Assembly (NCBI GenBank): GCA_947561395.2
Contig: OX387194.1
Location: 15,610,048-15,674,047, forward strand
Length of the DNA stretch: 64,000 bases
From: Buxus sempervirens
Taxonomy: Eukaryota > Streptophyta > Magnoliopsida > Buxales > Buxaceae
Reading direction: 5' to 3'
How positions within the stretch are numbered: position 1 is the stretch's first letter; every line of letters starts with the position of its first letter. Shown here in pieces: positions 24,702 to 61,575 of this stretch. The notes below the pieces were generated by a model that was not told where the DNA came from, did no database searches, and worked only from the letters and a program-made list of their open reading frames with translations. Both the position numbers and the translations under genes were made by a program.

Positions 24702-25319
24702 CTAAATCAAACCTATAAGGTCTTCTATCCTAATACCATCAATGTCCTTACTCTCTTCTATAGCAGTAACTTTGAGTCTATATTTTTCAGGAAGAGATCT
24801 GAGGATTTTCCTTACCACTCTATTTGGAGGAATTCTATCACCAAGATTGAAACTGGAGTTTACTATATCACTTAGTTTGGTGTAGAAAGAATCAAAAGGT
24901 TCATCCGCTCCCATTTTCAATTCCTTAAACCTAGTGATAAGCGTCTGCAATTTGGAATTCTTCACAAGGATAGTTCCCTCATGAGTGGTTTCTAAAATAT
25001 CCCAAATTTCTTTACTTGTTTGACAAGTGGAAACCCGTTTGAATTCGTCAGTAGATATTGCACTAAAAAGTTCATTAACACCCTTAAAGTTGTAGTTCAC
25101 TTCAACTAACTCTTCTCCGGTATAATGGTCTGGGTTTTTGGGTTTTTCCTCACCATCTATAATAATAGTGGGAGAAGTCCATCCTCTCTCAACACTTCCC
25201 CAAACCTTTTCATCAATAGCCTTCAGATAGGCTCTCATACGGACTTTCCAATAGGCATAATTACTGTCATCAAAGAATGGTGGGGCAGTGGAAGACTTGT
25301 CCATGACTAGCAAAGTCAA
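24702..25319 (-). pseudogene. copia gag N-terminal domain (DUF4219/UBN2 type)
   Basis: A 205-residue minus-strand frame beginning near MDKSSTAPPFFDDSNYAYWK, the usual gag start of plant copia elements. It is followed by the UBN2-type helical gag domain (CQTSKEIWDILETTHEGTI, RFKELKMGADEPFDSFYTKL, RVVRKILRSLPEKY). It forms the particle shell. It lies 13 bp from the primer site, so the start is well placed; the ATG at 25304 is preferred. It ends in a stop at 24702. Confidence 0.9.
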
Positions 25320-25331
25320 GGATCCGATTAA

Positions 25332-25345
25332 CCTCTATGATACCA
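25332..25345 (-). other. copia primer binding site
   Basis: TGGTATCATAGAGG on the minus strand, close to the initiator-methionine tRNA complement TGGTATCAGAGC used by copia elements. Confidence 0.8.
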
Positions 25346-26566
25346 ATTAATAAACACGGTTTAGACTCTAACAACACCTAGAGGGGGTGAATAGGTGTAA
25401 ACGATTGTGGAATAAAATTCTAATAATTAAAGACAAGTCCTTAATTAACAGGCATGCACAAGTCTTAAACGAATAGCAACCAATCGCACAAAATTGCAAA
25501 TAAAGTAATGAGACAACACACGCAATTTTGGTGACAAAGGGAAAACTCTAAGAGAACTCTCAAAGAGAAAAACCCTCCGGACGATCAGGTGCCACCTTAG
25601 AAAATTCACTATAAGAAAAAGACTTACAGAAAGTGGTTCAACCGACCCAATACAAACTCTGACTCACAGTGTAAGTATCTGAAGAACTCTTCAAATTTGC
25701 AACCTTGCAACGATCCATAACTCTAAATATTTTCTTAGTGAAGCACCAAACGAACTCGCTCAGCAACCGTAGGAATTCCCACAAGCAAGCTCTCCAACCC
25801 AGAACTCCAAGGTAAGAGAAGAGAAAAGAAAGAAAGGTTTTTATGGCTCAAAGTTAGAAAGGGAAGGAGAAGAAGTTCTCTTCCACACACACGATTTTAG
25901 GGTTCTAAAAACATCTTGGGTAACCCTAAAGAATGTCTAAACAATCCTTATATAGATTAAAAAGAAGTGAAGAAAGAATAGGAAACAAATCAAAAAAGAT
26001 CAGAATTTTATAACTGATTTTCCGTATTGAACGTTCGAACGTTCATCGAACGCGGCTCTAACGTTCAATACGAAGAACTACTTCACCTCTTCTCGTTCGA
26101 ACGAAAGTCTCACGTTGAGTTTAAATAACACAAACGGTCGAACGTTGAGACTAACGTTGGCAAACACAACTCTCGGGTTTCTCTGCAGACCTTGAACGTT
26201 CGAATGATAAGTCTTGCCTTCTCGAACGCAACTCTCGGGTTTGACTGTATGTACTGAACGGTCGAACGGCAGGTTTTGTCTTCTCGAACGCAACTCTTGG
26301 GTTTGTCTATATGCACTGAACAGTCGAATGGCAGGTCTTGTCTTCTCGAACGCAACTCTCGAGTTTGTCTGTGTTTGAACTTTGCACTGAGCGTTTGAAT
26401 GACACATCAAACGACTATCTAACGATTACTATAACTTCCTCAATTTGACTCCGACGTAAACGCCATTTGAACCAAGACTCCTATGACCTATCCCAAACAC
26501 TTTGAACACATTGAACACTTACTTTTTGACACGGAATTAAGCCAATATAAAATATTGAACCTAACA
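25346..26566 (-). repeat. 5' LTR of the minus-strand copia element
   Basis: Starts at 26566 with TGTTAGGTTCAATATTTTAT and ends beside the primer site. About 1.22 kb. A TATA-like box (TCTATATAAGGATT on the minus strand) is near 25950. It carries a 62-base minisatellite in its U3 part. Confidence 0.82.
26159..26406 (+). repeat. 62-base minisatellite in the copia LTR
   Basis: Four copies starting at 26159, 26221, 26283 and 26345, spaced exactly 62 bases. Core words are CTCGAACGCAACTCTCGGGTTTG and GAACGGTCGAACGGCAGGT. Next to it, 26025-26105 is dense in the palindrome-like word GTTCGAACG. Located in U3, so it may be an enhancer array (inference). Confidence 0.9.
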
Positions 26567-27764
26567 AAAACTAGCGCTTTGACATGCCTATTTGTTTATG
26601 CCTTGGCTAAAATTAGGATATTCACTTTAAAATAGGATCCAAGTTTTCGCTGATATTAAGGGCTGGATGCTCACGGCTTACTTCCAAATGATTTGAGCAT
26701 GATATTCCTGTTGAAGAATGATTTTCTTATGGAGCGGTGATGCAGACTTGCCGGCATAGTTCGACGGAGTCTGACAAAATATTTGAGAGTTTGCCGGGGG
26801 AAGTAATTTGCTCACGACTTCGAAGAAGCTGTGGTTGAGCATTAACGGCAATTGACGCCATTTTTTCCAGCATTAGTAGCATTGGTTCGGAACATTAGAA
26901 AAAAGGAAAGAAAGAAGAAAAACTTTTTCTTTGAATTTTTTCACCGGGAAGACATCTTCCATTCATCAAACAGAGAGAGCCAAAAGAATTCAGAATCAGT
27001 GCGTATCTTTTTTGGTGTATTATAAGTCACCTTTTTGAAGAAAACATAGAATTAAAATTATTAAACAAAATAATTCCATTTGAAGATATTCCACCAACGC
27101 AAACCAAGTACCGGAAATGAGAAGCTACCTTTGGGGACAAATGTGGAATTTGATTTTTGAATAGCCAAGTTATGTAAATGATAATTATTAAGAAGCATTT
27201 TCTATAAAGTGCATAAATTTGCATTGTAGCTATTTCAATGATGTTAAACCCAGCCAAACCAAGAAACGCATTTTTGAATATGTAATATTATTCTTGGTGG
27301 GAAACCTGGGAGATGCATCAGGATTCTTGAAGCTCACCCCATGTCAGCCTGCACAAACTCAAAATGAGAGAGAAAGAGAGAGACTTTACACACTATGCAC
27401 TTGACACCTTTAGGACAAACTTTACACACCTGTATTGCCTCTTCATAGTTTTGCAAACAATGCTTCTAATCAAGCTCCTTAATCTACTTGACGAGAAGGT
27501 AGCGGAGAGTAAAATTGTAAAACTCTGACAAATAGTAGACTAATGTTGATATATATGAAGATTTTCCACTTGCAGTTTTTACATAATAAAAGACTGCAAC
27601 ACAAAACTTCCAAACACCAACACCTGCAACAAATTCGGTCTTGACGTTTAAAGATGACTATTAGCTATATCCGTTCTCTTTACGGAAATTACAGGAAAAT
27701 CAATCACCACATGCTTAGTAGGTTTAGAAATGCTTCATATTGTTTACAAGAAAATTTCAATCGA
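26567..27764. other. flank between copia element and NRPB12
   Basis: No confirmed gene. On the minus strand 26861-26732 gives a 42-codon frame starting MASIAVNAQPQLLRSREQIT, preceded by a leader-like sequence; it may be a remnant first exon cut off by the copia insertion (confidence about 0.2). A GA microsatellite is at 27366-27383. Confidence 0.35.
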
Positions 27765-27789
27765 CCCCCCCCCCCCCCCCCCCCCCCCC
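27765..27789 (+). repeat. 25-base poly-C run
   Basis: Uninterrupted C run, read as G on the NRPB12 transcript, starting 10 bases after the stop codon and so inside the 3' UTR. Confidence 0.95.
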
Positions 27790-27799
27790 ACTGTGATCC

Positions 27800-30700
27800 T
27801 CATCGAGCTTCATACTGAACAACTGTGACAAACAAAAGATGTCATGGTAATAAAGTGTACAAGGACTGTAAATGGTCATGACAGCATAAGCTAAGCAGAA
27901 AACAGGTAAAAACAGAACATGCAACACAGATTAAGTTCTGCCAGTAAGGATCATCATCAGTATCAGTTTTTGTATCTCTCATCAAGTTAAAGATTGCATG
28001 AATACTGAAATATTTGTGTAACTGTAGTCATATGGCACAAAGAACCTCTGGGTATGCCATGCATTGGACAAGAGTTCAAGACGTTCCACCCAGTAACCAG
28101 TATCTTCTGGATTCTTAGGCATAATTACTCCAAATATCCTTTTACTAACATCCTGCATTAAACGGAAAGCTAAATCCAAATATCCACATTAGTGAACTTG
28201 GATCAGTTTACCTTACTAGAAGTCACACTGGAATTATATTATTTTTGGGTCTCATTATATTGGCATTCTAGTAAAAGAAAGGACCTAGATGGAATGTGTT
28301 GAAGTCAACCTGAATAGACATCCTGGTTGAAGATTCATTTATTAACAAATTGGCATAGCAGAACAAGACTTCTGGTGCTAACCCCAACTAAGAATGCATC
28401 ATAATTATTCTCCTTCAATGTCAAACTTCACAGTAGACAAGGAGGATTTTCATGATTAGATAACCACTTGAAAGAGTTACTAAAACCTTTGTTTGCTCAT
28501 CATTTATTTTCCACTGAAGTTTTAAGGCCCCATTCACCAACCACGCTTTGGTTGGAACTGGCTTTTGATGATGATGAATTTAGTCCCCAGAAGCTCAATT
28601 CTTCTTTGATATAACACTATAATTATATAAAACTGAAGCTACTGACAAAGAAAACCATGTTCCTTCAACAAACTTATTACAACCTGTGGCCCTATACTAT
28701 CACACACTTCAAGAAGAACTACTTCTTGTAATAGGGAGAAATTCCTCTTAGATCTTCCATTCACTCCTTTGTATCATTCTCCAATGAGACTGATACACGT
28801 ACCCCTTGAATTGGCAAGCATTTCCTTGCATTCAAAATTCTTAAACCAATTCAAGGGCACGTGTATCAGTATCATCGGAGACTGATACAAGGAGAGGATG
28901 AAAGATCTGAATGGAATGGCTCCGATTGTAATATGCCTTAAACCATTGAACTGCCCATTGAACCATCCCTCATGGTGCATACATGTAACCATACACAACA
29001 CTCCATGCACATGGTACATGGGTGAAGAGTTAAACCAGCCTCATGCACCAGAACATGGGCATCCTATGAGGACTAAGTTGGTTGTAGTCCCTAGTCTCTA
29101 TTAGTGGAGAGTGAGAATATGTCAGTTATAGTTTGAACCTTTGTTAGTTAGGGTTGGTTAGTTGAGAGTGAGAATTTGATTCTAAGCTTTTAACAGCTTC
29201 TAATTAAGAATTTTAGAATTTAATCCCTTGCCATAAGCTCAAACTTTGAAATTTGTATCTTTTTTGGTCCTATGTATGCACAAAAAGAGTTAAGGGAGTG
29301 GCATTTCATACACTATTCCACATGACTTCTTTTAGAGAAAAATGTTAAAGACATTGCTGAACAATTTATAGTGGCCACAGTAATGGATGTGGCTTTATTA
29401 TTTCAGGTGATGGTCATATTATAAACAATGTTACGCCACAATTAAAGATAAAAGTCACAATGGTGCAACCACCAGTGGAGGTGGTGGTGCTGCCACTGTC
29501 ATAATAGAATGTGATGACTGGCTATAGCAATAGAGGTTGTGTTATTATTGTGGGTGATGATGTAAGTTTAAGTTTTCGTATGCAACCACTGGTCTTACTG
29601 TGGTCATGCAACCACTGAAAGTGGTGGTTCAATGATCAAACATGACGGTGATGTTACTGAAGGCAATGGGGGCAATTTTACATGCAAGTATTTACATTGT
29701 AAAATTTACATTCTCCATAGAAAATGTTATCTAAATCTTATTTTGTACTAAAACAAATGGAGCTCTAGAACTAGACTGTATGCACCGAGGTCTAACTTAT
29801 AAAATTCAGAATTATGTCCAAGTGCACCTGTACTTCTGAGTCTTCACGCTCACCTTCTTCTTGAAGATGCTCCCCATTTGGGACCACCAACTGATATTTC
29901 ACTTTCAGAAACAACTCTTAATTGCTTAATGAATGCTGGTTCTATGAAATTGCGTTCATTTTGCACAACGAATTGAGCTGAAGGTGCAAAGGCATAACTG
30001 GCAGAGAATAAGGGCAAAATGGGATTTTGATAGAAGTTGAACTTCTAAAAAATCTCGATTATTATAATGAAGACTCCAAGACCATTACAATTCAAGAAAC
30101 AGTGCACAAATCGGAGTTCAGATGGAAAAGTTATGAACAATGCATTGTCAAGGGCATGTTGGTCATTTTCGAAGTATACCACATGTTAACAATCTATGCA
30201 CCATGCAATGGCCACGTAGCTAAAAAAATTGGATTGGCAAAGGACAAAAGGAGAAAAATTAATAAGGAGAAAAGACGTAAAACAATAAAGAAATGATAAA
30301 TTAATTAACAAACAAAAAATAAAATAATAAAAAGATGGGTCAAAGGGGGTTAGGAGGGGAGGTGAGGGGGTGGACGTGCATGCAAGTCTACCTGTCTCTC
30401 TTTTTGACCTTAAGGGCGGAGGCCATTCTCCCATAAAATTTTTTGGACTTGCAAGGCTGTGCCATGCTCAGAAAACGGTACAACTAAAACTAGTTGCACT
30501 GCTTTCTAAAAACAGCACCAGCATTTTTTATGCTCTATCATTATATGTGGACTACACAACCCAGCCTAGCTATAAAATCCAAATTTGAATACTTTTGAGG
30601 GGCTTTTTTCTGATTTCCTCAAGAACATTCCAACCCCCAAAGCATTAAAAAGTCTACCAAGCCTTCTCCAACCCTTTCATTCCATTTTAATCCACTTTTT

Positions 30701-33700
30701 GTAGCCTAAGATCATCATCTAAATCCACCGAAAAAGTCTATTCACTAGTAATTACTCAGGAGTGTGTAGTGTCCTTGAGTGGTTTCCAAGTGAGATGAAG
30801 GCAATCCTAGCCAGCTAACAGTTGTTTTGACCCTTCCTAGGAGCTTACTCATAGAGAAAGTTTCATTAGGAAGCTTAACACCCTATCCAACTAAGTATAA
30901 CACCCACCTTGATGCAACACAATTGCTGTCCAAAACTAAGGGGCTCCTAAACATCAAGATCAAAGCTCCCATAGCAAGGTAAGTTTCTTTTTGGTTTAAA
31001 GTTCAGTCATGTGCATGTTCATTTCTTTAAATTTCCAAAATGATGAAATGAAAGCATATTAACTCTTGGTTTTACATATATCACACTAAGCTCATTCTTT
31101 TACAGTGTTCATTACATTCCACATGTTTTAATGTAAAATTTTGATAATCTCTGGTTCCTATACAACCATGGGAATTGAATGATCTCAAGAGTAAAGTGTA
31201 AGTTCTTATGTTGAGATGTTTTGGAAAGAGATTGGTCACCAACTAGTCCAGTCACCATGGGGATGCCATGGAAGGTTCAAAAGCAGGGTTAAGGCAGAGA
31301 AAACACATGGGGAGAACAACTGAATCCTTTTTTAATTCTCTTTTCTACCTTTTTCATTTTGGATGACTGTTATAATCTCTCCTTTCTCTTTTTTGGATGG
31401 CACACACACACACACTTGAGCACTCTAATGGTTTGTTAATCGTACACACAAACTTATGAACGTCTCTTTTCCTTTATTATGATTGATGGATGATGAATGT
31501 ATGCAAAAGAAATGAGGTAATTCACTGCTCTTCCTCATGGGAGATGGCTGTAAACCCCTCTACCAAAGGCTGGAAAACATTTCAGGCTTTATGTACCACT
31601 CAAGACTTCTTAAACAACCATGAACAGCAGCCTTGTAAGTGATTTCCTCCTTATTTTGGCCCCAAAATTAAAATTAAACTTGCATCTTTTTGTAAAAGAA
31701 CCATGACCAGACTTCTATAGGTCTGGGCACCACTGAAACAACTCAAATGTGCTTTTTAATACCGGTCTCATGCTTGAGAAGTACAGCTCATTAATTGAAC
31801 TCTAAAGAGTCCATTTTTGGACTGTTTGATGCATAGAAAATGATTAAACACGGTGTTTTTGGTTCCAAATAGAATCTGAAAATGTTTGGGCCAAAGACAG
31901 CAATTTGGCTACCTTCTTCTTCTAGTTCCTTCTCTTGCAAATCATTTTTTAAATTGATCGATCAGGTCGGTTCTTCTACTCCAGTTTCCTTTTCCGTTTC
32001 TCATTTATAGAAGCCCAAGATTTCCCCCTAAGACTAAGGCCTTTCTATGGACTGTCATCCTTTACAAGCTTAATACGGCTGATTGTCTCCAAAGGAGATG
32101 GAAGACAAACACTTTATCTCCTCATGTGTGTAGCATGTGTATGGAGGCTGGGGAGAGCATTGATCACCTCTTTGTTTAGTGCCAGTTTGCTAGTGTTATA
32201 TGGATGTGGCTGGTGCAGTTAATAGGAGTCTCTTGGGTTCTCCCAAACAATTTAGCAGCGTTGTTTGAGCAATGGAGATTCAGAGGATTGGGGAAGAGGG
32301 GGGGCATCGTCATCTATAGTTCCATTTTTCATGTAGATGTATGGCACATTTGGCTAAAGCGAAATAGTAGGATATGCCAGGACTCTCGGTCGTCAGTGGA
32401 TCACGTGTTTAACTCTATTTTCGTTGCAGCAGCACCATGGCTGGCGGTTTTACTAGAGTTTCGGGGCACCCGTGCAGTGGTCATAGTGAGGGGCTGGTAT
32501 AGGTAGTGCTTATCTTTGCTGGTGGATGAAGGGTCGTAAGGATGGTGTTAGGTGAGATCATGGAGGCTAGCTTCGATTTACAGGGAGCAGTGTATCTTAA
32601 TATCGGAGTTGAATGCCTTATTCAGCTTCGGTTCAATTACATGTTTTTGTTTTAGTTGTTTTTTTTGGTGATTTCCGGTGGGAGATGGTTGATATGGATT
32701 GTATTGTGATAGGTAGAGTATGTTTTTGCATTGGCATGTCCATGTTTCGGGAGGTGCTTGTAGAGTTGTGATGTACATTCCTTTTTATATTATATATAAT
32801 CCTAATATCATTACTCATAAAAATAAAATAAAATAAAAAGACAGCAATTTCATTGCCTCTGGAAATCCTTTATTGGCAGCAAAACATCAGGATTATAGGC
32901 TGAGATACTTGGACCATTCTTTCTGATTTTGATTAGATGGATTCGGCCACTTTTGGGCCCGCACAGGTCCTTCATTTTGCTCAGCTAGACATACCATGTA
33001 TAGGCCCAAACACGTAGCAAAATCTAAAAATTGTTTAAATACAATGATTACCATTCACACAAGATGGTACAAAGGAAGATCGTCTGTACCGTCTAGAAAA
33101 GCTGGTAAAATAGCTTGTACCGGTCATGTTAAATTGCAGAGTGTAAAAAATGATGTGACTGTTCCTTGGACATAACACTCTGCAGATATTGAAAGGAGCT
33201 GAAAGTAGGGCCTAAATCACTTGAAAATAAACCAATCAAGCCCCCACTTTGAATATGGGCCTTGGCTCATTGATTGAAGGATTATGGGTCTTCCAAGTTC
33301 CAATAGAGCCTACCTAACCAACCCACATTGTAATGCCTTGAAATTTTAAAAAGGGTAGAATAGTAAATTTGCAATTATAACTAAAATAATTAAATAGGTT
33401 AAGTGGGTTAGCCTCTTTATTTAAAATAAAAGAGGTATACCTAACCCAAATTCTCTACGGATTTTGGGTACGATCGTAATTAGACATATTAGAACCCCAG
33501 TTTAAATATAAGTTCTAAATTAGAATTAGGATCTTTTGCTATTCTCTAGATTGATTTGGTCGTGTGGCGATTTTTGTGGAGGAACCCTAGGCTTATGGAT
33601 GTGTGATTCTAGAGGAAGAAGAAGGAGATTTCACGATCAAATTCAAGGAAATCAATAACAAAGGAATCTAAGGCCTTGAGGTAGGTTGATCTACAATTTT

Positions 33701-36700
33701 CAAGTCGTTTGTAAAACCCTAACTAACGAAATCATGCCTGAACCTATCTCTGTAAATTCTGGGGGCATGAGATCATGCTTGTTAGTAATATTGTGATAAT
33801 TAAGTAGAGAATTCATGATTTGCATGGTGATTTAATTGATTAATAGCATAGTTGGGTAAAATCCTAGAATTTTGCATGATAGAGTGAAATTATGATTCCA
33901 TTGATTAAACCTTCTTTTTATTCATTGGTTTTGCTTCTAACATATCTAAAAACATGCTACTAGGTTCATTTGATTGATTGCTTGTGTGTTTGATTGAAAT
34001 CATGAAAGTTGAATATGCAAACGAAAATTAAAACTTTAGGATTTCAATGGTGAGATGGTCAAATTGTAATCCGGGTGAATTTGGTGTGTTTGGATAGTTA
34101 GGAAATCTATTAGGTGCTTAAAAACATGTTAAATTCAATGGATGTGGAGAAATTCATATAGGAAACACAAAATTATGAAATCTGGAAAATTTACAAATGG
34201 GCGCTTGACCCTGCTCGAGCGCCACATCAGGTGCCTCGCTTGTGCTTTATTTTTACTTTCAAAACCCGAAAGTGATGAATTTTGGAAATAGGGAGTGTCT
34301 GATCCAACGCCTGAGCGTTGGTTAATTTTGTTGGACACCCGAAACCAAGCTCGAGCACTGGTTTCTAGGTTTGAATTTGGATTTGAATGATTAGACACTT
34401 GAGTTGACGCTCGAACATCAAAGCAAGCGCTCGGAAGTAAAATATGAATTGATTGGGTGCTCGAGACAGGGCTCAAGCGCCAGCCCAAAATTGTGTTTTT
34501 GTGTTTTTTTGGACGATTTGTTCAATTTTAATTATATCTATGCCTTGATACATGACTAAATACATGATTATGAGCTTCTATAGATTGGTTATTGACCATT
34601 GATATCTATTAAATTAGAATTTGACATGTTTGTTGGAAAATTTGCCATGGTTGTTGGTGAAGACCATGTCTGAGGCATGTATGAGTTGCATTAAGCATTA
34701 AATAGGACTTCTTGTGTTTCATGCATGAGTATAGCATGATATTGACATTGTTTTTGGAACGGGTGAACTATGAGGGTCTACCAACAGTCACCAACATTCC
34801 ATGTTCATATATTTGATATCCTTACATGTCATAGTGAGAACTTTTCCCGAAACTTCAATATCTAGCGAATAAGTTGGGAATACCAAATGACGTAAGACCT
34901 TGAAGGATGAATCTCTAAGGAGCATTATTAGGTTGAGACCGTGTTATTGTTTAGAGCCAAACAACACAAAGGTGTTATAGGCATCTTGGGATTAGGTCTC
35001 CATTCCGCAAATAGTAGCTCGATATAGTACTCTGATCTGTTGAAAGCCTTTAGAACTACGATGTACACGTTGAATACTTTAAATTGCCCCAAGTGGTGTC
35101 CGTAAGTTGGAATATGTGTTGGGTCGGGGATATCGGAACAATTTCACAAACACAAGCAATTATAAGGGGGCCGGTGGAGATGACTCTTATAATGTGCAAC
35201 TCTAAGGTGCTTCATGATGCGAAGATAAATATCTCTAGAGGTTTTTACACATTTTTTTTTTACTGCATTCATTATATACAAGATTGTTTGAGCATGACTC
35301 GTGGATTTTGGAATTTTTTATGTAGAGTCCTTAGGAATCCATATACTTGATCACATATAGTGATTAGGGGGTCTTTCATGCATTTGCATTTATTATTGTT
35401 TCTATATTTTGATTTTTAATTCAGCATGCTATATTTGTTTCTTTTTATTCATACTGTTTATATTTTTAGGGTATATTTCTAAGGCTTGAGTTCTCCATGG
35501 GAACTTTTTTTTTGCTGAGTAATTAGGTGTGTGTGTGTGTGTGTGTGTGTGTGGTAAGAAGTGTACAGTGGTTACAAATATGATTTGACCCTTGAGCAAC
35601 AAACCTATACAACCATCGAAGCATATAGCAGACTACACCAAGGTACAAGAACTACAAAGCCCGTCACATGCCCCATCCCACATCAAAAGACTCAATATAA
35701 AATTTCTGAACGACCATGAATTGTAGCAAAACAAGCTATTCCACTACAAGTGAAGGCCGTCACAACACAAAAAGCCGTCACCGGAGATGACGTAAAATCC
35801 CCACCACCACTTTATAACCTAAGTAGACTATGAGAAGCAACATGACTGCATCCATCCAATAACTCTGACACTCCAACCCCTTGGAAATCTGGAAGAACGA
35901 AGGCCCAAGATGTTGCGAGTACTAGAATAGTATCAAACACATGATCCACTAGTCTCCTAACATCCTAGAATATCCCGACATTCCTCTCTAGCCAAATGTG
36001 CCACACCACCTCATGAAAAAAAAGGTTGTAGATAATACCTCCTCTCTTCACCAAAAACTCGCCATTGTACAAACCATGCTTCCAAAAAATCCGGCAACAC
36101 TCAAGACACTCCAATCAAATGAAGCAACCACATCCACATGTCATATGCAAACTAGCACTGCACAAACAGATGACCAATACTCTCTCTTGCTCTCATACGC
36201 ATAAAACATACCCGAGGGAATAAAGACATTGTCTTCCACCTTCTTTGGACGCAATCAATTGTATTAATCTTATACAAGAGGGCAGTCCAAAGAAAGGCCT
36301 TAACGTTGTCTTCCACCTTCTTTGGAGGCAATCAGTTGTATTAATCTCAATGGGAGTTGATCTATAGAAGTAATACCTACTGGACTATTTGCTCATTCCC
36401 TATTATTTTTACAGGTGTGTATGATGCAGCTTTTGAGGAGCAGGATGGTACTTAAATTGTGGACATAATTCAGCGTGGTTGGACCTTGGCTTAGTCTACC
36501 TAGAGTTATAGATAAGAGTTATTTGATGTCATGACCTAATAGAGTAGGGTTTATTTGTATTTCTTCTAATATTGAACTATGAATAGTGGAATTGTGATAG
36601 AACTCTTCTATCAGTCCCTCAAGCAACCTCCACTCCTCTAGGATTCATGGTAGCAATCGGCAAGATTAAGGATAGTAGATGAAGAATAGAAGAATAGAGA

Positions 36701-39700
36701 AGAAAAAGATGGTTGTAATTTGTATTGATCTGTAAATGAACGATTACATTAATGGAGGTATTCGAGAGACCTCCCCTCTCCAATTAAGCTCATACAATTT
36801 TTCATGCCCTCATTCTCTCCCCATCTTCTCTTTTTGATTGCTCGTAACTAACTCCCCTAACAGATATTGTCCACGTCATACCTGTTATCATTCTCTACTG
36901 CAAACACTAACTAATTCCTAACTATCTCCGCATCACTTTAGCTTCATGTGAGTCATCTCTTAGGCTAAAGAGTTGGGCCCTTGAAAGCTTGATGTGGCTG
37001 CTCTTCCTCTCCTGATGTGGCTGCTCTTCCTCTCCTTGTATATGTGAATGGAATTGGAGGTTTGCTAACCCTTGGGATCCCATCAAATTGTTATTCTTAT
37101 AGCTACTCTGATATTCTTCTCATTCATATATAGTGGATTTAATTTGTCTTAATGTGCAAGATGTTTGTATTTCAGTTTTATTTCCTTTTAAATTTTATTA
37201 TACTGATGTATGGTACATCAAGTACTTGAAAGTTGGGAGTTTGCTTGGGTTTTCACATTGGGGTGTGTAGAAGCTGCAGTTATGTCTTAGTATCATTTAC
37301 CCCATTACTATTTATATTATTAATTAATTATTACGAATATAGGGATAATATAAGTATAATTTTCGAGGCGTGACACACATCATATGAATTTGGATTAAAT
37401 ACAATGAACAAAAAACTTTTGGACTTAACCAATATGGAGCAGTCTGATCCAGCCCATATTTTGAAATCCCATACAGGCTTCAAAAATAAAATAGATGAGC
37501 GAGAGAGTCAATCTGGTCCAACTAGAAAATCCAAAAGGAAACCCATCAATGACGGGATGACATCTGTGAGTCATAACTAGGTTACTTAGCCGGAATTTTT
37601 GACCCAAACTAGACATTTTGACCCGGGTGACTGCCTACACCCATTGTTTAACCCTATAGCTAGTCGCACATTCAAACTGGCTAACTGAACTACCGCTAAG
37701 CCGAAAATCCAAACCGAGTCAACACCTGAACCACATGCATGGATGGATTTACAGTGACTAGGGTTGAATAATCTAGTCCTTGAGCTCACATCACTTGTAA
37801 AGCAGCAATACCTATAATGGCAAGCGAGGATATCTCTATTCATTCAGATACTAAGCAAACTATCTTCAATTTGACTCGTTCTCAATCTTCACTTCTATTC
37901 TATCTTTTGGCTAACTTCCTTGAGTCAAAAACAGGGTCATAATCTTACAATGATGACCAGGTTTGAAGCATTTCATTGCTGTTAAAACACAGGCCCTTTT
38001 CTTGCCTTTCTCAATCTAGCTGTCAACCTTCTAATTAGAGAGATTTGGCATGATTATAACTAATTTTGTATTGCAAAATAAGGTTTAGCAAATTTAGTTC
38101 ACATAAGCCTTAAAGATGAACTTACCATTAAGTATTGGGAGAATTTACATGTTCATGTCCCCATTAACAACATAGCATATATATATGGTACATGGATAAA
38201 CGTTAAATTTGAAGCCTCAAGCATGGGCATCCTACAAAATGTTGGAAGGAATTACATATTGGCTTTCCTTTTCAAGAGATCTGGCTGTTCCTCTAAAAGG
38301 AAGTATCTTTATTAACTATTTCCCTCAACATTTTAACATTCAGCATAAGAAAAAAACCAGATCTATGCAACCAGTTCCCTTGGTTATGCTAGATATATGA
38401 ATAGCAAAGGACGGTAGCATGATGTTACAGAGATATCAGGCATAGAGTGATATCCCACAAGAAGATGGAAATTGGGAAATATATAAATTGATGCAAGATA
38501 GGTATCAATAAAACAACCCTGCAGACAAGGTTGCTGCCTAGCACATGGGAAATGATACGTATCTGTAGTCGTGCACAGCCCATCATGCACATGGGATGTC
38601 ACTGAAGAGTTACATATGAAGCCTCATGTATGGACAAAACACAGGAAATTAGTTGTTTGTTTGTCCGGTCCATAATTTCTGTTATTGGAGAGCAATAACA
38701 GGTCATTTTGTTAAGATAAATTTAGTAAGTTATTATCTTAACTTCTGCTAGGAAGTGTCTGTTACTAGAAAGTGATAGTATATCAGTAAGTTGTAAAAAA
38801 AAGGGGGGAAAACAAATAGTTTTTGAAAATAAGATCTAATTAAGCTCAACCACAGCATCCTAGAAGATGTACTCTCTAATATACCATAATCATGATTCAA
38901 AATTATAATAAACAGGAGCATTCATTGAAACAACATATATTCATGACATTCTGCTCCACAGCGAAAAAAGAAAAAAAAATAATATTTTTTGAAACAGAAT
39001 TCTGAAAACATCCATGAGACTAGAGTTTTAAATTCCTCTAAATTTCCTGCCAAGAATGACACCAAAATTTCCCTATTCTTGAAATTTTTGTTTACGTTTC
39101 TTTTATGGAAAAATAGTTCCAACAAGCAAGTTTTTTCCAAAATCAAAATCTAAAACGACAAGTAGAACGCCGTGTATCAACCTAAAGTAAATTTCTAGAT
39201 AACACATAAACAAAAGGAGAGAAAAATATATTGAGGTTGCTTACTTCTACGAGTTCGCTTCTTGTACAAGATGCGGTAACCACACTCCCTGCACTGAATC
39301 ACATCACCAGGCTTCAGAGTGTTTTCCTGTCCACAATCTATAAACAAAAAAACAAAAAAACAAAAAAACAAAAAAACAAAAAAACAAAAAAACAAAAAAA
39401 CAAAAAAACAAAAAAACAAAAAAACAAAAAAACAAAAAAACAAAAAAACAAAAAAACAAAAAAACAAAAACAAAAAAACAAAAAAACAAAAAAACAAAAA
39501 AACAAAAAAACAAAAAAACAAAAAACAAAAAAACAAAAAAACAAAAAAACAAAAACAAGCAAATAAATAATTTCAGAGCCCAAGCCATTATCAGTAATGG
39601 ATGACTGAATACTTGTCATAATAAGAAAGGAAACAATCTTTCAATATAAGAAGAAAGAGAAGAGGAGGATCGCATCTACCTCCACAGATGTAAGTCACTG

Positions 39701-39719
39701 GTTCCGGCTGTGGATCCAT
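27800..39719 (-). CDS. NRPB12: RNA polymerase II/IV/V subunit 12 (Rpb12/NRPB12)
   Basis: Small zinc-ribbon subunit shared by nuclear RNA polymerases, needed for assembly and open-complex stability. Minus-strand coding exons are 39719-39680 (40 nt), 39337-39245 (93 nt) and 27822-27800 (23 nt). Together they give 156 nt, 51 residues plus TGA, the normal plant length. Exon 1 encodes [13 protein letters not shown]; exon 2 contains [19 protein letters not shown] and ILYKKRTRR; exon 3 completes IVQYEAR. The four zinc Cys (positions 12, 15, 29, 32) are present. All junctions are GT-AG and phases agree. Intron 1 is 342 bp, mostly an A/T-rich octamer repeat; intron 2 is 11,422 bp and full of transposons. 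A 5' UTR intron (40067-39749) precedes the start. Exon 3 was found by matching the conserved C-terminus with an AG acceptor in the right phase; splicing over 11 kb is inferred. Confidence 0.9.
27982..28166 (-). other. exon-like open frame in NRPB12 intron 2
   Basis: Minus strand, directly after a good acceptor (CCGTTTAATGCAG), the frame reads [20 protein letters not shown], then [10 protein letters not shown] and [11 protein letters not shown], to a stop. Its composition looks protein-like rather than random, but I do not recognise the family. Splicing NRPB12 exon 2 to this acceptor would hit a stop after two codons. It could be a gene remnant or alternative terminal exon. Confidence 0.3.
28789..28870. 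repeat. 25-base inverted repeat (hairpin)
   Basis: ACTGATACACGTACCCCTTG at 28789 pairs with CAAGGGCACGTGTATCAGT ending at 28870. The arms are 26 and 25 bases with a single bulge around a 31-base loop. It may be a solo miniature transposon or a foldback. Confidence 0.85.
28871..29830. other. intronic sequence, unassigned
   Basis: No gene seen. 29370-29640 is rich in GGTGGTGG and CAACCACTG words, some in inverted order, but no element ends were defined. Confidence 0.4.
29831..31700 (+). repeat. possible gypsy-type LTR, ends not found
   Basis: A TATA box GCTATAAAATCC (30570-30580), a long AT-rich leader and pyrimidine-rich downstream sequence have the texture of the other LTRs here. No TG or CA ends, target duplication or partner copy was found. 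The 89-codon frame at 30027 shows no known domain. Confidence 0.25.
31893..31906 (+). repeat. LINE target duplication, left copy
   Basis: AAAGACAGCAATTT, identical to 32837-32850. Confidence 0.92.
31907..32836 (+). mobile_element. 5'-truncated LINE with perfect target duplication
   Basis: 930 bp between two copies of the 14-bp sequence AAAGACAGCAATTT. It begins inside the C-terminal part of the L1-type ORF2 and ends in an A-rich tail (ATAAAAATAAAATAAAATAA). The zinc-binding segment after RT (zf-RVT) is visible from about 32070: [33 protein letters not shown], then [21 protein letters not shown] stop interrupts it at about 32177. A classic target-primed insertion into NRPB12 intron 2. Confidence 0.93.
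35505..36344 (-). mobile_element. LINE 3' fragment, minus strand, nested in the LTR
   Basis: The minus strand encodes the same zf-RVT region as the LINE at 31907: [44 protein letters not shown], with stops. Its poly(A) tail is the T run at 35505-35513, with a (GT)n microsatellite just inside at 35527-35554. The 5' end holds a 75-base tandem duplication: TCTTCCACCTTCTTTGGA appears at 36232 and 36307. Possible diverged target duplication: TCTCCATGGGAA at 35492 and TCTCAATGGGAG at 36345. Confidence 0.75.
35527..35554 (+). repeat. (GT)n microsatellite
   Basis: About 13 uninterrupted GT units. Confidence 0.95.
36591..36862 (-). repeat. possible small copia-type solo LTR
   Basis: The minus strand begins TGTTAGGGGAGTTAGTTACG at 36862 and runs to ...AGAGTTCTATCA at 36591. 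TG...CA ends and leader-like TTGTAATTTGTATTGATCTG fit a small LTR. No target duplication was found. Confidence 0.3.
37381..39009. other. intron 2 sequence near exon 2, unassigned
   Basis: AT-rich, no recognised element or coding frame. Confidence 0.4.
39342..39556 (+). repeat. octamer repeat (CAAAAAAA)n in NRPB12 intron 1
   Basis: About 27 units of CAAAAAAA, with two shorter ones at 39466-39473 and 39517-39523. On the transcript strand it is TTTTTTTG, occupying nearly two thirds of intron 1 and ending five bases from the 3' splice site. Long reading frames across it are artefacts. Confidence 0.95.
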
Positions 39720-42453: not shown

Positions 42454-43433
42454 TAATATCATCGCTAATTAAACTCCACCATAAAATCTTCACATTGTGC
42501 TCTGTGCTCCAAGATGAAATCTTATGGGGTCGTTAATTCCTGCAAATATCTCTAGAATTTAATAGATCTTTCCATCACTGGGGTAGCTCCATCTATACAA
42601 TTCTTCAGACCAAGAATTCGATCACGTTGAGAAATTATAGGAACCCCCATCACTCACCATCGTTGCAAATTAGCAAGATCCCCTCACCACCCAACCCAAA
42701 ATCCGCATCAAATTATCTTTATACTAATTACAATGCAATGCAAAACGAATACAATGAGACAGGATATTACAACCCATTACAGAAAGACAAAAACCCTAAG
42801 TCATGGATCCATTGCATCCATCGCAATTCTTGGCGTAGCCATTGGAGTCGTACCTAAAGGTCTGGGGCAGAACTACGTGGTCTGAAAATTTGAAAGAAAT
42901 ATGGGTATTTAGTAGGAAATTAGCAATGAATGGCAAAGGGGTTTTTCTATGCGTGGATGAAGCTCTGCAATACCAACGAAGGTAACCTTGAAACCGACGC
43001 CATGAAAGAACATAAGAGCAGTAGAAAATTTCTAATTCTACGATATCAACAGCCATGAACCCAAAAAACAAGGAAATAATCCTGAATATTGCAGGAAGAG
43101 AAGTATGAAGCAAACCTTAAGAGCTCTTGGTCTTCAGAAAGCTTTAAACAGCACAGCACAGAGAAAACCCCCAAACGTCACTTCTACAATGAATCAAAAG
43201 AAGAAGATGGAAGATGGTGATGAGGCCGTCAAATTTCCTAAGGTTGATGAAGGGAGGTGGTGTTCGTACTTCGCCGTCGACGAAGGGAGAAAACCCCCAA
43301 ATTTCGCAGGGCAAAAGTCGGCAGACAATAGAAGGTTAGGGCAAATCGATATTTGGTTTTACTCTTTTAAGTTATGGTTCAAGCACGATTTAATTTTTGA
43401 TGGTTCAAGCATGGTCTAACAACTCTGCGCTGA
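42454..43433. other. right part of spacer, unassigned
   Basis: No gene recognised. The minus-strand frame at 43113-42796 ends in a Cys-rich tail (KNCDGCNGSMT) but has no known family. Bases 43250-43425 repeat part of the nested element. Confidence 0.35.
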
Positions 43434-43966
43434 GTTACATCTAAACACTTGGAAAAAACAAAAAAGGAAAACTTTTTCTTGGAAAATTTTCTTCCAGAAA
43501 ATATTTTCTGGTGAAACAAACAGAGCCAGACTACAGCTCCATTTTTTTAAGTACTCAATCCTTCTCTTTCTCTGCTGAAACCCTAAACCAAAAGCCTCTG
43601 CGCTTCTGTTCATCTGAGGTAAGCAAATGTCAATACTTTAAATCTCTTGCTTTTCTATAGCTTCTCCGTGTTTTCTGATTTTAGATTCTTATGAGTTTTG
43701 ATTTCGTCTTTCAGATTTCTCTTATCATCTTCCCTTCAAATCCAACCCGCATTCTTATATTGTTCTGTAATTGAAATCTCATTTTGCCTTTTTCGTTTAC
43801 TTTATTCTGTTTTTTGTTTAGTGTTTCCAGATCTCATCATTTTTCAGTTCATTGTCTTGTAGAATTATATGATATCTTTTTTACTTCGTTAAAATTAAAA
43901 AAAACCCCCTAACTTTTGATTCTTTTCGTCTCATCAGAAACCCTAATTTACCATTCTTCGTGATCT

Positions 43967-44306
43967 ATGGATCCACAGCCGGAACCAGTGACTTACATCT
44001 GTGGAGGTAGATGCGATCCTCCTCTTCTCTTTCTTCTTATATTGAAAGATTGTTTCCTTTCTTATTATGACAAATATTCAGTCATCCATTACTGATAATG
44101 GCTTGGGCTCTGAAATTATTTATTTGCTTGTTTTTGTTTTTTTGTTTTTTTGTTTTTTTTGTTTTTTTTGTTTTTTTTGTTTTTTTTTGTTTTTTGTTTT
44201 TTTGTTTTTTTGTTCTTTTGTTTTTTTTTTGTTTTTTTGTTTTTTGATGTGATTCAGTGCAGGGAGTGTGGTTACCGCATCTTGTACAAGAAGCAAACTC
44301 GTAGAA
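43967..44306 (+). pseudogene. NRPB12: NRPB12 duplicate, truncated
   Basis: Exon 1 is intact (43967-44006, [13 protein letters not shown], donor GGTAGATG). The T-rich intron runs directly into the middle of exon 2 at 44246 (GATGTGATTCAGTGC). The 3' splice site and the first 32 nt of exon 2, including the second zinc Cys (CGDC), are missing. The remnant to 44306 carries one Arg to Gln change (CAA, 44294). No exon 3 follows in the window. It cannot make Rpb12, but its promoter, leader and UTR intron are preserved and it could be transcribed. Confidence 0.92.
44124..44245 (+). repeat. degenerate T-rich octamer repeat
   Basis: Counterpart of the intron 1 repeat, about 120 bases with unit length varying between 6 and 10; ends inside former exon 2. 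Confidence 0.9.
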
Positions 44307-44540
44307 GTAAGCAACCTCAATATATTTTTCTCTCCTTTTGTTTATGTGTTATCTAGAAATTTACTTCAGGTTGATACACAGCGTTCTACTTGTCGTTTTA
44401 GATTTTGATTTTGGAAAAAACTTGCTTGTTGGAACTATTTTTCCATAAAAGAAACGTAAAAAAAAATTTCAAGAATAGGGAAATTTTGGTGTCATTCTTG
44501 GCAGGAAATTTAGAGGAATTTAAAACTCTAGTCTCATGGA

Positions 44541-44581
44541 TGTTAAAACTAACAAAAAAAAGGGTTTTGCTAGAATTCTAC
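44541..44581 (+). repeat. 41-base inverted repeat, left copy
   Basis: TGTTAAAACTAAC, A run, GGGTTTTGCTAGAATTCTAC; its reverse complement is at 48457-48499. It begins exactly where the right NRPB12 arm ends. Confidence 0.88.
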
Positions 44582-59150: not shown

Positions 59151-60053
59151 CTACTGCCTGAAGGCATACGACCCAGTTCTATACTGAAACAAACAATTCT
59201 TAACTTTAGAAGAAAGCAATGAAAAAAATTCATATATGATCTTAGATGAGTGATCACATCCTTCATTTGCAAGAACATCAGCTACAGTATTAGCATCTCT
59301 GTAGACATGCTGAACCACCCTGTTTGGTATGTTTAGTCTTCCTTTGATCTCCTTCCACCATATCAAAAATTTCCAAGGTATTGACGCCAATCCATTAATT
59401 ATGTCCACCAGAATTTTTGAGTCCGATTCAATTACCAGATCTTGGAAACCATAGCTGTCTGCCAATCGAAGACCATCTCTTAGAGCAAAAAACTCAGCCA
59501 AGAGGTTAGATTGGACTCCATAGTGAGCTGAAAAACCAGCAATAAATGCACCTGATGAGTATCTGATAACTCCACCCCCTCCTGAAATTCCTGGATTTCC
59601 TTTAGAAGCCCCATCCACATTCAAAATTATTTCTGAACTTCTTTGCCTTAACCAACGAACAAACTGAATTTTAGGAGGTCTAATGAATGGAGAGAACAAC
59701 TGCATTTGTTCAAGAACCAAAGCTTCTTGAGCCTTGCAATTACTAGAAGGATTAGTAATATATGCAATTTCCTGGAACCAATGATAAACATTCCTTGTAA
59801 TTTGGTTAACTGACATAGGTTCCTCATCAAATCTGCTCTTACATCTGGATAACCATAGCTCCCAACAAATTAACAAAGGAGTTTCTTTAAAGAGGAGACT
59901 ATATTGATCATTTGAATGAACATTAAACCAAAAAGAAACTTTGGACGCCAGGTCATGCAGCAGATGGAATTGGCATTCAAAACAATTGGCAAAAAACTCC
60001 CACAATAAGTGAGCAACTTCACCAAAAGTGAAAAGGTGATTCAAACTCTCCAT
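59151..60053 (-). pseudogene. LINE ORF2 C-terminus with RNase H
   Basis: 300-residue open frame on the minus strand. After a spacer comes a plant-LINE type RNase H (RVT_3): ILNVDGASKGNPGISGGGGV holds the first catalytic Asp, LLAEFFALRDGLRLA the Glu, LVIESDSKILVDII the second Asp, and VYRDANTVADVLANEG the last Asp. All four acidic residues are kept. The frame continues from 60078-60836 across one stop or shift. ATG 60053 is not the natural start. Confidence 0.92.
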
Positions 60054-60077
60054 TTTTTTGTTTGTGCAACAGTTGCA

Positions 60078-60836
60078 CTAAGAGCATAATTGAATACCAC
60101 ACTTTTGAATTCGGTCATCAGTGGGCAAAGCCCCCTTCAAAAGTTTCCAAAAAAAGACGGCAACTTTTTTTGGAATAAAGTTAACCCAAATACTTTTACT
60201 CCATGCACAATTATCCCCACGTTTTCTGATTATGTTCCAAGCAAAGTAAGTGGAAAAAAAAATACCTGAAGAAGTTGGTTTCCATAATGGTTTGTGAGAT
60301 TGGAAAAGCCGATAATAAACTTCAGAGATTAGAGAGGTGATATCATGAGGAAGAATTTCATTCAGTAACTCTATATTCCAAGAGCCATTAGGATTAAGAA
60401 AGTCAATCACTTTTGCATCAGGAAATTGAAGCTCCTCATCTTGAACATAATCGACCATTTTTCCTAAGTGAGACCATTGATCAAACCAGAAACTGATATT
60501 GCCTTCTTCAAGAGACCAAACAGTGTTGTCCCAAATAACCTCTTTCACCTTTAGAATTGATTTCCATATCTTGGAACTACCACTTCTTTCATGCAGATTT
60601 TGAGGATATCTTGCTCCACAATATTTAGCCCTCATAAAATCTGACCATAAATTGTCCCCATACAAAGATCTCCAACCCATTTTTATTTGGAGACTCTTCA
60701 TAACATCTGAAACAGACTTAATATCCATACCCCCTTCAGATTTGGGGAGACAAATCTTTTCCCAACATACCCAGTGTTTCTTGGAGCCATGTTCAGAGCT
60801 CTCCCCCCAAAAAGAAATTCGCAAAAAATGCTTCAA
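60078..60836 (-). pseudogene. LINE ORF2 post-RT region with zf-RVT
   Basis: 252-residue minus-strand frame between RT and RNase H. It contains KHWVCWEKICLPKSEGGMDI, typical of the RT thumb/connection, then SFWFDQWSHLGK and WVNFIPKKVAVFFWKLLKGA, the start of the zinc-binding zf-RVT segment. It breaks just before its Cys pair (the stop follows IQLCS). Confidence 0.88.
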
Positions 60837-61575
60837 TTCTTTTCATAACAGCTTTAAGGAAGGGAATAGCAGATAATGAGTGAATAGGTATACTTGAAAG
60901 GACACTTTGAATGAGAGTCACTTTGCCTCCATGAGAGAGGAGCTTAGACTTCCAGCCACTAATACGTTTTTGAATCTTTTCAAGTAACTCAAAAACATTG
61001 GCAAAGAAGCTCTACCATTAAATAATGGAACACCCAAATACTTGATAGGCAAGCTGGCTTTCCTGATTCCAGACATTGATTGAAGCATATCCAGGTGAGA
61101 ATGAGAAAGTCTAGAGGATGTGATCAAACAGCTTTTGGACTTATTCACCAATTGACCAGAAGCTTCCTCATAAATCTTAATAAAATTCAAGAGATTAGCT
61201 AAGGAAGATCTCTTACCATTTAAGAAGACAAGAATATCATCCACAAATAGTATATGAGACACTTTAACTGATACTCTTCCAGTATTGAAGAAACCAATGG
61301 AACCATCATGCACCAGAAAGGACAAGCCTATACTAAATACCTCTTCAGCAATGATGAAAAGCAAAGGAGAAAGAGGATCCCCTTGACGAAGACCTCTAGA
61401 AAGACTTGAAGAAGCCACATGGAGAACCTTTAAGAAGAACACTAAACCAGCAATTATTTAAACACCGAGTAATAAGATTGCACCATGAATCTGAGAAGCC
61501 AAACCTTCTACAAACCTCGATGAGAAAATCCCACTCCATTCTATCAAAGGCCTTTGCCATATCAATCTTGACAAT
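60837..61575 (-). pseudogene. LINE reverse transcriptase, partial
   Basis: Minus strand. Motif A: VKIDMAKAFDRMEWDFLIEV at about 61560. Motif B: LSRGLRQGDPLSPLLFIIAE at about 61390. Motif C: SHILFVDDILVFLNGK, with FVDD where plant L1 elements usually have FADD; both catalytic Asp are present. The thumb follows (PIKYLGVPLFNGR). Frames change at about 61440 and 60917. The first RT motifs were removed when the LTR inserted at 61576. Confidence 0.92.

Follow-up and report, generated by a model that had tools for sequence, protein, structure and literature searches.

In Arabidopsis, the genes IBM1, RPP7 and PPD7, associated with the IBM2/EDM2/AIPP1 complex, carry a long heterochromatic intron bearing transposons or repeats ahead of their downstream exons (PMC4417168, PMC5364540, PMC11265718). 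Both IBM2 and EDM2 are needed for intronic transgene insertions to escape ectopic 3' ends (PMC5364540), and correlated downstream-exon defects at intronic transposons are described in cmt3, ddm1, met1 and kyp suvh5 suvh6 mutants (PMC4417168). Here we analyse NRPB12, the gene for RNA polymerase (Pol) subunit 12, in a stretch of 64,000 nucleotides of Buxus sempervirens DNA (assembly GCA_947561395.2, contig OX387194.1, positions 15,610,048 to 15,674,047), referred to below as the window. The window NRPB12 has the feature common to the IBM2/EDM2 class, transposon sequence within a long intron. We regard it as highly probable that this is a functional-looking gene whose long intron grew by insertions, was duplicated between the assembly sequences C21 (which holds the window) and C3, gained a CACTA element on C3, and is transcribed and spliced across.

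The gene and its distant last exon

The three exons of NRPB12 (Table 1) join into a 156-nt frame encoding 51 residues and ending in IVQYEAR and a stop. All splice sites read in the window are GT/AG, with GTAGATGC directly after exon 1, TTTATAG before and GTAAGC after exon 2, and TTTGTTTGTCACAG directly preceding exon 3. The joined protein matches PF03604 (E=1.3e-18; score 66.8 bits, cut-off 24), its translation contains the zinc ribbon CX2C...CX2C (cysteines 12, 15, 29 and 32), and residues 1-51 align on residues 1-51 of Pol II/IV/V subunit 12 in the PDB (best E=2.7e-31, 14 distinct sequences). The conserved basic C-terminus (VQYEAR, VQFEAR or similar) was aligned to its last residue in all five PDB alignments shown, the chains of which we take to be two plant, two animal and one fission yeast. 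The exon coordinates, the 51-residue product and the 11,422-bp intron proposed in the initial annotation were thus borne out by direct reading, by the GT/AG ends and by the end-to-end alignment. In yeast, Rpb12 reduced to its N-terminal domain failed to complement, and a C-terminal peptide of 17 residues from the archaeal subunit was enough for basic functions in vitro; a need for the Rpb12 C-terminus is thus well grounded (PMC2680338).

To score the far exon, AG sites in the right phase and open for seven codons were scanned between window positions 26000 and 39244. The acceptor at 27822 scored 34 and leads into a stop, while the runner-up among the 572 open sites scored 15 and has none; the maximum over 200 first-order Markov shuffles was 23. 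The same scan of a second copy of the gene on C3, described below, gave 34 for the true site and 19 for the runner-up (1,352 open sites). A degenerate pattern of the expected end matched exactly once within the window, and three times at two mismatches, roughly the chance level. The pattern GTTCARTAYGARGCNMGNTRR occurred twice in the 676.5-Mb genome (reversed control, 0), both times downstream of an NRPB12 exon 2: the matches are the window exon 3 and the collinear exon on C3. The match at 27822-27800 proposed in the initial annotation is therefore not one of chance, and there is hardly any doubt that this last exon is genuine. Exon 3 and its acceptor also lie inside a 111-bp run that is identical between the two copies, which is not by itself proof of constraint, since equally long runs occur elsewhere in intron 2.

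Could exon 2 instead read through, or splice to a nearer last exon, leaving 27822-27800 as a relic of a gene whose usual product ends otherwise? Retention of intron 2 would give a product of 60 residues, the 44 encoded so far plus 16 more. Nonetheless, no close candidate for a nearer last exon and no second IVQYEAR-like end was found among the open acceptors of either copy, the C-terminus is conserved across the aligned PDB chains and functionally important (PMC2680338), and the window and C3 copies do not differ in exon 3 or in its 3' splice site. We consider a different ending very unlikely. As a caution for annotation, a 23-nt last exon lying 11-26 kb away is easily overlooked, and the gene would then be taken for a truncated one.

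Two repeat tracts adjoin the coding parts. An 8-bp repeat (TTTTTTTG) of about 27 copies at 39342-39555 reaches the intron-1 acceptor and swells intron 1; C3 has about two copies. A run of 25 G on the sense strand (27765-27789) starts 10 nt past the NRPB12 stop, where C3 has 6 G.

Copies of NRPB12 in the genome

A genome-wide PF03604 search returned three matches (20/20 candidates scored), namely the window gene, C3:37523707-37523799 and a fragment elsewhere in the window (44246-44293, plus strand). The C3 match belongs to an intact NRPB12 with exons at 37523973-37523934, 37523789-37523697 and 37497305-37497283. Its coding sequence differs from that of the window gene at 3 of 156 nt (two silent changes and Thr9 to Ser), exon 3 is identical at 23/23 positions, and the coding splice sites and stop are kept; its intron 2 measures 26,391 bp (37523696-37497306). 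No short-intron NRPB12 was found in this search, and since none was found, NRPB12 function in B. sempervirens, judged from the assembly, probably relies on splicing an intron of 11.4 or 26.4 kb. The initial annotation had an essential gene apparently depending on the 11,422-bp intron. NRPB12 need not depend on the window gene, because the intact C3 paralog has the same structure; what remains of that statement is that the only complete copies found both have the enlarged intron.

The two genes lie in a shared segment of about 32-41 kb, broken by copy-specific insertions (Table 1). When 124 kb of C21 was compared with 150 kb of C3 (matches of at least 150 bp), one collinear block was obtained, and the remaining matches were scattered and resembled repeats. 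Since, at this match length, the homology breaks off on either side of the block, we attribute the C3 copy to a segmental duplication and reject alternative haplotypes and whole-genome duplication as its source. Alignment of window 27147-39106 with C3 gave 365 differences over 11,806 positions (3.09%); if plant sequence changes at 7e-9 to 1.3e-8 per site per year, the copies diverged roughly 1-2 million years ago. Intron 2 is collinear between the copies along 11 kb, with small insertions and deletions only (the largest 84 bp), and the 11-kb form of the intron is therefore older than the duplication. At the edges of the block, a minus-strand retroelement frame bearing RVT_3/RNase H (59151-61457), presumably of long interspersed nuclear element (LINE) type from its neighbouring frames, marks the right side, and a copia-type gag (24702-25334, minus strand) lies outside the left.

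The extra length on C3 comes almost wholly from an insert of 14,828 bp (C3:37508728-37523555), 141 bp into intron 2. It carries CACTACAAGAA at both ends, is flanked by TAT and TAG, so that one of the three target-duplication bases differs, and encodes a tnp2-type transposase (Transposase_21, E=3.1e-99), with reverse-transcriptase frames also inside. By its termini, its target duplication (one base off) and its transposase, the insert is a CACTA DNA transposon.

We weighed the idea that an assembly or haplotype artefact accounts for the second copy or for the long intron. The copies are only about 3% apart, and assembly is difficult in the simple-repeat and homopolymer tracts of the window. On the other hand, two separately placed loci concur on the 11-kb intron, the insertions carry target duplications, and the homology ends on both sides of the single collinear block; an artefact is scarcely credible. 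The exons, splice signals, copy number in the assembly, common long intron and insertions are direct observations.

A more serious alternative is that the gene at work is the one on C3, the copy in the window being a decaying duplicate whose intact frame reflects youth only. The swollen repeat at the intron-1 acceptor, the G25 run after the stop against G6 on C3, and the divergence of only about 3% would suit such decay. Yet the window copy retains its frame, its coding splice sites and exon 3, and has Thr9, as do the two aligned subunit 12 chains of Pol II/IV/V, whereas C3 has Ser9; nor is C3 the obvious winner, because its intron is the longer at 26.4 kb. We find decay of the window copy unlikely, though well within consideration, and it would be compatible with the long-intron mechanism proposed below, which in that case would operate on C3.

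The third PF03604 match marks an inverted, truncated copy that stands head to head with the window gene (Table 1). This pseudogene has lost the 3' splice site of intron 1 and roughly 30 nt of exon 2, has no exon 3, and its homology to the gene stops early in intron 2. A tract similar to the 8-bp repeat adjoins its exon 2, where the acceptor is lost. In a three-way alignment, 27 ungapped columns single out C3, 6 the fragment and 4 the window gene, and 3 differ in all, these being upper counts, as the alignment takes in unrelated ends. This distribution points to an origin of the fragment most likely on C21 after the C3/C21 split.

What fills intron 2, and how long it is

Table 1. Positions of NRPB12 parts, intron 2 elements and related segments in the window (TSD, target-site duplication; LTR, long terminal repeat; MITE, miniature inverted-repeat transposable element)
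Feature	Position	Strand	Remarks
NRPB12 exon 1	39680..39719	-	13 codons + 1 nt; read directly, translated
NRPB12 intron 1	39338..39679	-	342 bp; C3 counterpart 144 bp
NRPB12 exon 2	39245..39337	-	93 nt; three of four zinc-ribbon cysteines
NRPB12 intron 2	27823..39244	-	11,422 bp, GT-AG
NRPB12 exon 3	27800..27822	-	23 nt; completes the Ile codon (2 nt), then VQYEAR and a stop
Palindromic MITE	28734..28925		TSD TTGTAATA, 8-bp direct repeats; repeated genome-wide
LINE-like 3' fragment, intron 2	31907..32836	+	antisense to NRPB12; 14-bp direct repeats AAAGACAGCAATTT at ends
Solo-LTR-like TG...CA element, intron 2	33329..37375		4,047 bp with nested pieces; TSD CACAT
Truncated LINE-like piece nested in solo LTR	35505..36307	-	strand inferred from T-rich left end
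Solo-LTR-like insertion nested in larger one	36595..37085		491 bp; TSD AATTG
Inverted truncated NRPB12 copy	43430..44544	+	5' part of the gene, from the promoter region through exon 1 and a damaged exon 2 into intron 2
Segment shared with C3	27147..58957		C3:37496629-37537286; segmental duplication

The elements of intron 2 and their target duplications add up, summed by hand, to about 5.2 of 11.4 kb (about 45%). The larger solo-LTR-like element has numerous dispersed relatives, which match parts of its main stretch at 73-86% (38/1,554 candidates scored), and the LINE-like piece nested in it partly resembles, in inverted orientation, the separate LINE-like fragment. Pfam searches of nine of the ten open reading frames (ORFs) of at least 80 residues in the intron, leaving out an 85-residue plus-strand ORF at 30331-30588, detected no transposon family; a PF12887 match of one ORF (E=0.022) fell short of the cut-off and was put down to chance. 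LINE and solo LTR are accordingly names given by structure and dispersed copies, without Pfam support. The intron had been described as loaded with a LINE, a solo LTR and nested insertions: the kinds of element were broadly right, and "loaded" overstated their share.

Some 6 kb of the intron is thus old or unrecognised sequence. Positions 37377-39244 have matches at the two NRPB12 loci and in the window fragment and, beyond these, only a weak one of 117 bp on C19 (5/5 candidates scored); 27823-31902, the MITE aside, matches only the two NRPB12 loci (40/250 candidates scored); and 32851-33323 was covered only by the whole-intron search (38/1,554 candidates scored).

Within this part, a protein-like minus-strand frame of 56 residues follows an AG (28152-27985). 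It has 57 residues on C3 and was found genome-wide only at the two NRPB12 loci. A nested gene here was rejected, as no Pfam, NCBIfam or credible PDB match was obtained (best PDB E-value 0.39); its substitutions (two silent, one not) are ordinary against other open frames, and entering it from exon 2 leads to an immediate stop. Structured RNA was likewise discarded: four Rfam matches between 26000 and 46000 (E up to 1), two on the palindromic MITE and two outside the intron, were all below gathering scores.

We compared this intron with those of other polymerase genes, of large-subunit type, using genome searches with PF00562 and PF04998 and measuring by hand the gaps between neighbouring hidden Markov model (HMM) matches of the same gene that were profile-contiguous within about 20 positions. 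These are HMM gaps rather than annotated introns, and pseudogenes may be among the genes sampled. The sample is small, its 11 contiguous gaps having lengths of 10.1, 7.3, 3.9, 3.3, 2.4, 2.4, 1.4, 0.9, 0.4, 0.3 and 0.2 kb; wider ones, with 57 to 129 unmatched profile positions and so possibly concealing exons, include 11.6, 10.7, 7.7, 6.9, 0.7 and 0.7 kb. The window intron is at the long end of the range in its own genome, near the largest contiguous gap (10.1 kb) and not far outside. Because other polymerase genes show intron-like gaps approaching such a size, NRPB12 is a tidy example and not a new kind. A limited literature search found no literature on NRPB12 introns.

Proposed history and comparison with known systems

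Intron 2 was probably long before transposons came, because some 6 kb carries no identified element. It would then have grown to 11.4 kb through the arrival of one MITE, of two fragments of LINE-like type and of two solo LTRs. The segmental duplication would have followed, leaving the gene on both C21 and C3, and the copy on C3 would have gained its 14.8-kb CACTA element in the corresponding intron. Pol II most likely transcribes the whole of intron 2 by conventional transcription, and the spliceosome most likely joins exon 2 to the far 23-nt exon, giving the normal 51-residue subunit. By analogy with Arabidopsis, IBM2/EDM2-type machinery and CMT3/MET1/DDM1-dependent marks may curb early polyadenylation within the intron. 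We infer the transcription, the splicing, the role of heterochromatin and the order of events before the duplication.

Several points weigh against this account. At 3.1% divergence about 5 coding differences are expected, so that the 3 found are too few to prove selection, and a third NRPB12, for instance in an assembly gap, may have been overlooked. The window intron exceeds all 11 contiguous gaps, and the C3 intron lies far beyond them. In Arabidopsis, no rescue was ever observed for one insertion that brought an intronic region to >20 kb (PMC5364540), a result relevant to the C3 copy with its 26.4-kb intron. Mutants of RNA-directed DNA methylation (RdDM) are described without the correlated downstream-exon defects (PMC4417168), and loss of intron methylation was mostly without effect on full-length transcripts, those of IBM1 and PPD7 excepted (PMC11265718). 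Because of these last two results, the heterochromatin step may be unnecessary.

We see only a very slim chance that this long intron with its transposons serves NRPB12 as a chromatin-sensitive gate, in which loss of silencing would cause early polyadenylation and less NRPB12, a feedback kept through the duplication. NRPB12 being common to Pol II, IV and V, the supply for both transcription and RNA-directed silencing would then fall. Apart from such a gate, the locus offers a test case for the extent of intron growth that a housekeeping gene, tiny and essential, can bear. Because the second introns of the two copies, which are about 3% apart and share their exons, differ in length almost wholly by the CACTA element, the cost of 15 kb of extra intron could be measured in one plant.

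The likeness to the PDB subunit 12 chains (presumably plant Pol II/IV/V, human RPABC4/POLR2K and yeast Rpb12) is one of protein, the Pol II/IV/V chains matching over the full length including the last residue, whereas the question at the window NRPB12 concerns gene layout alone. In oil palm, the Karma LINE in an intron of DEFICIENS reportedly misdirects splicing when hypomethylated (mantled). NRPB12 likewise has LINE-like sequence in a plant intron, but is not known to be misspliced in this way. Conifers likewise have genes with introns longer than those of most plants (PMC4108047), but conifer genomes of about 9 and 12 Gb are far larger than the 676.5 Mb of Buxus. NRPB12 shares with IBM1, RPP7 and PPD7 a long intron with transposon or repeat sequence that has to be traversed before the downstream exons, and differs from them in encoding a shared polymerase subunit, in an intron of 11.4-26.4 kb and in a last exon of 23 nt (PMC4417168, PMC5364540, PMC11265718).

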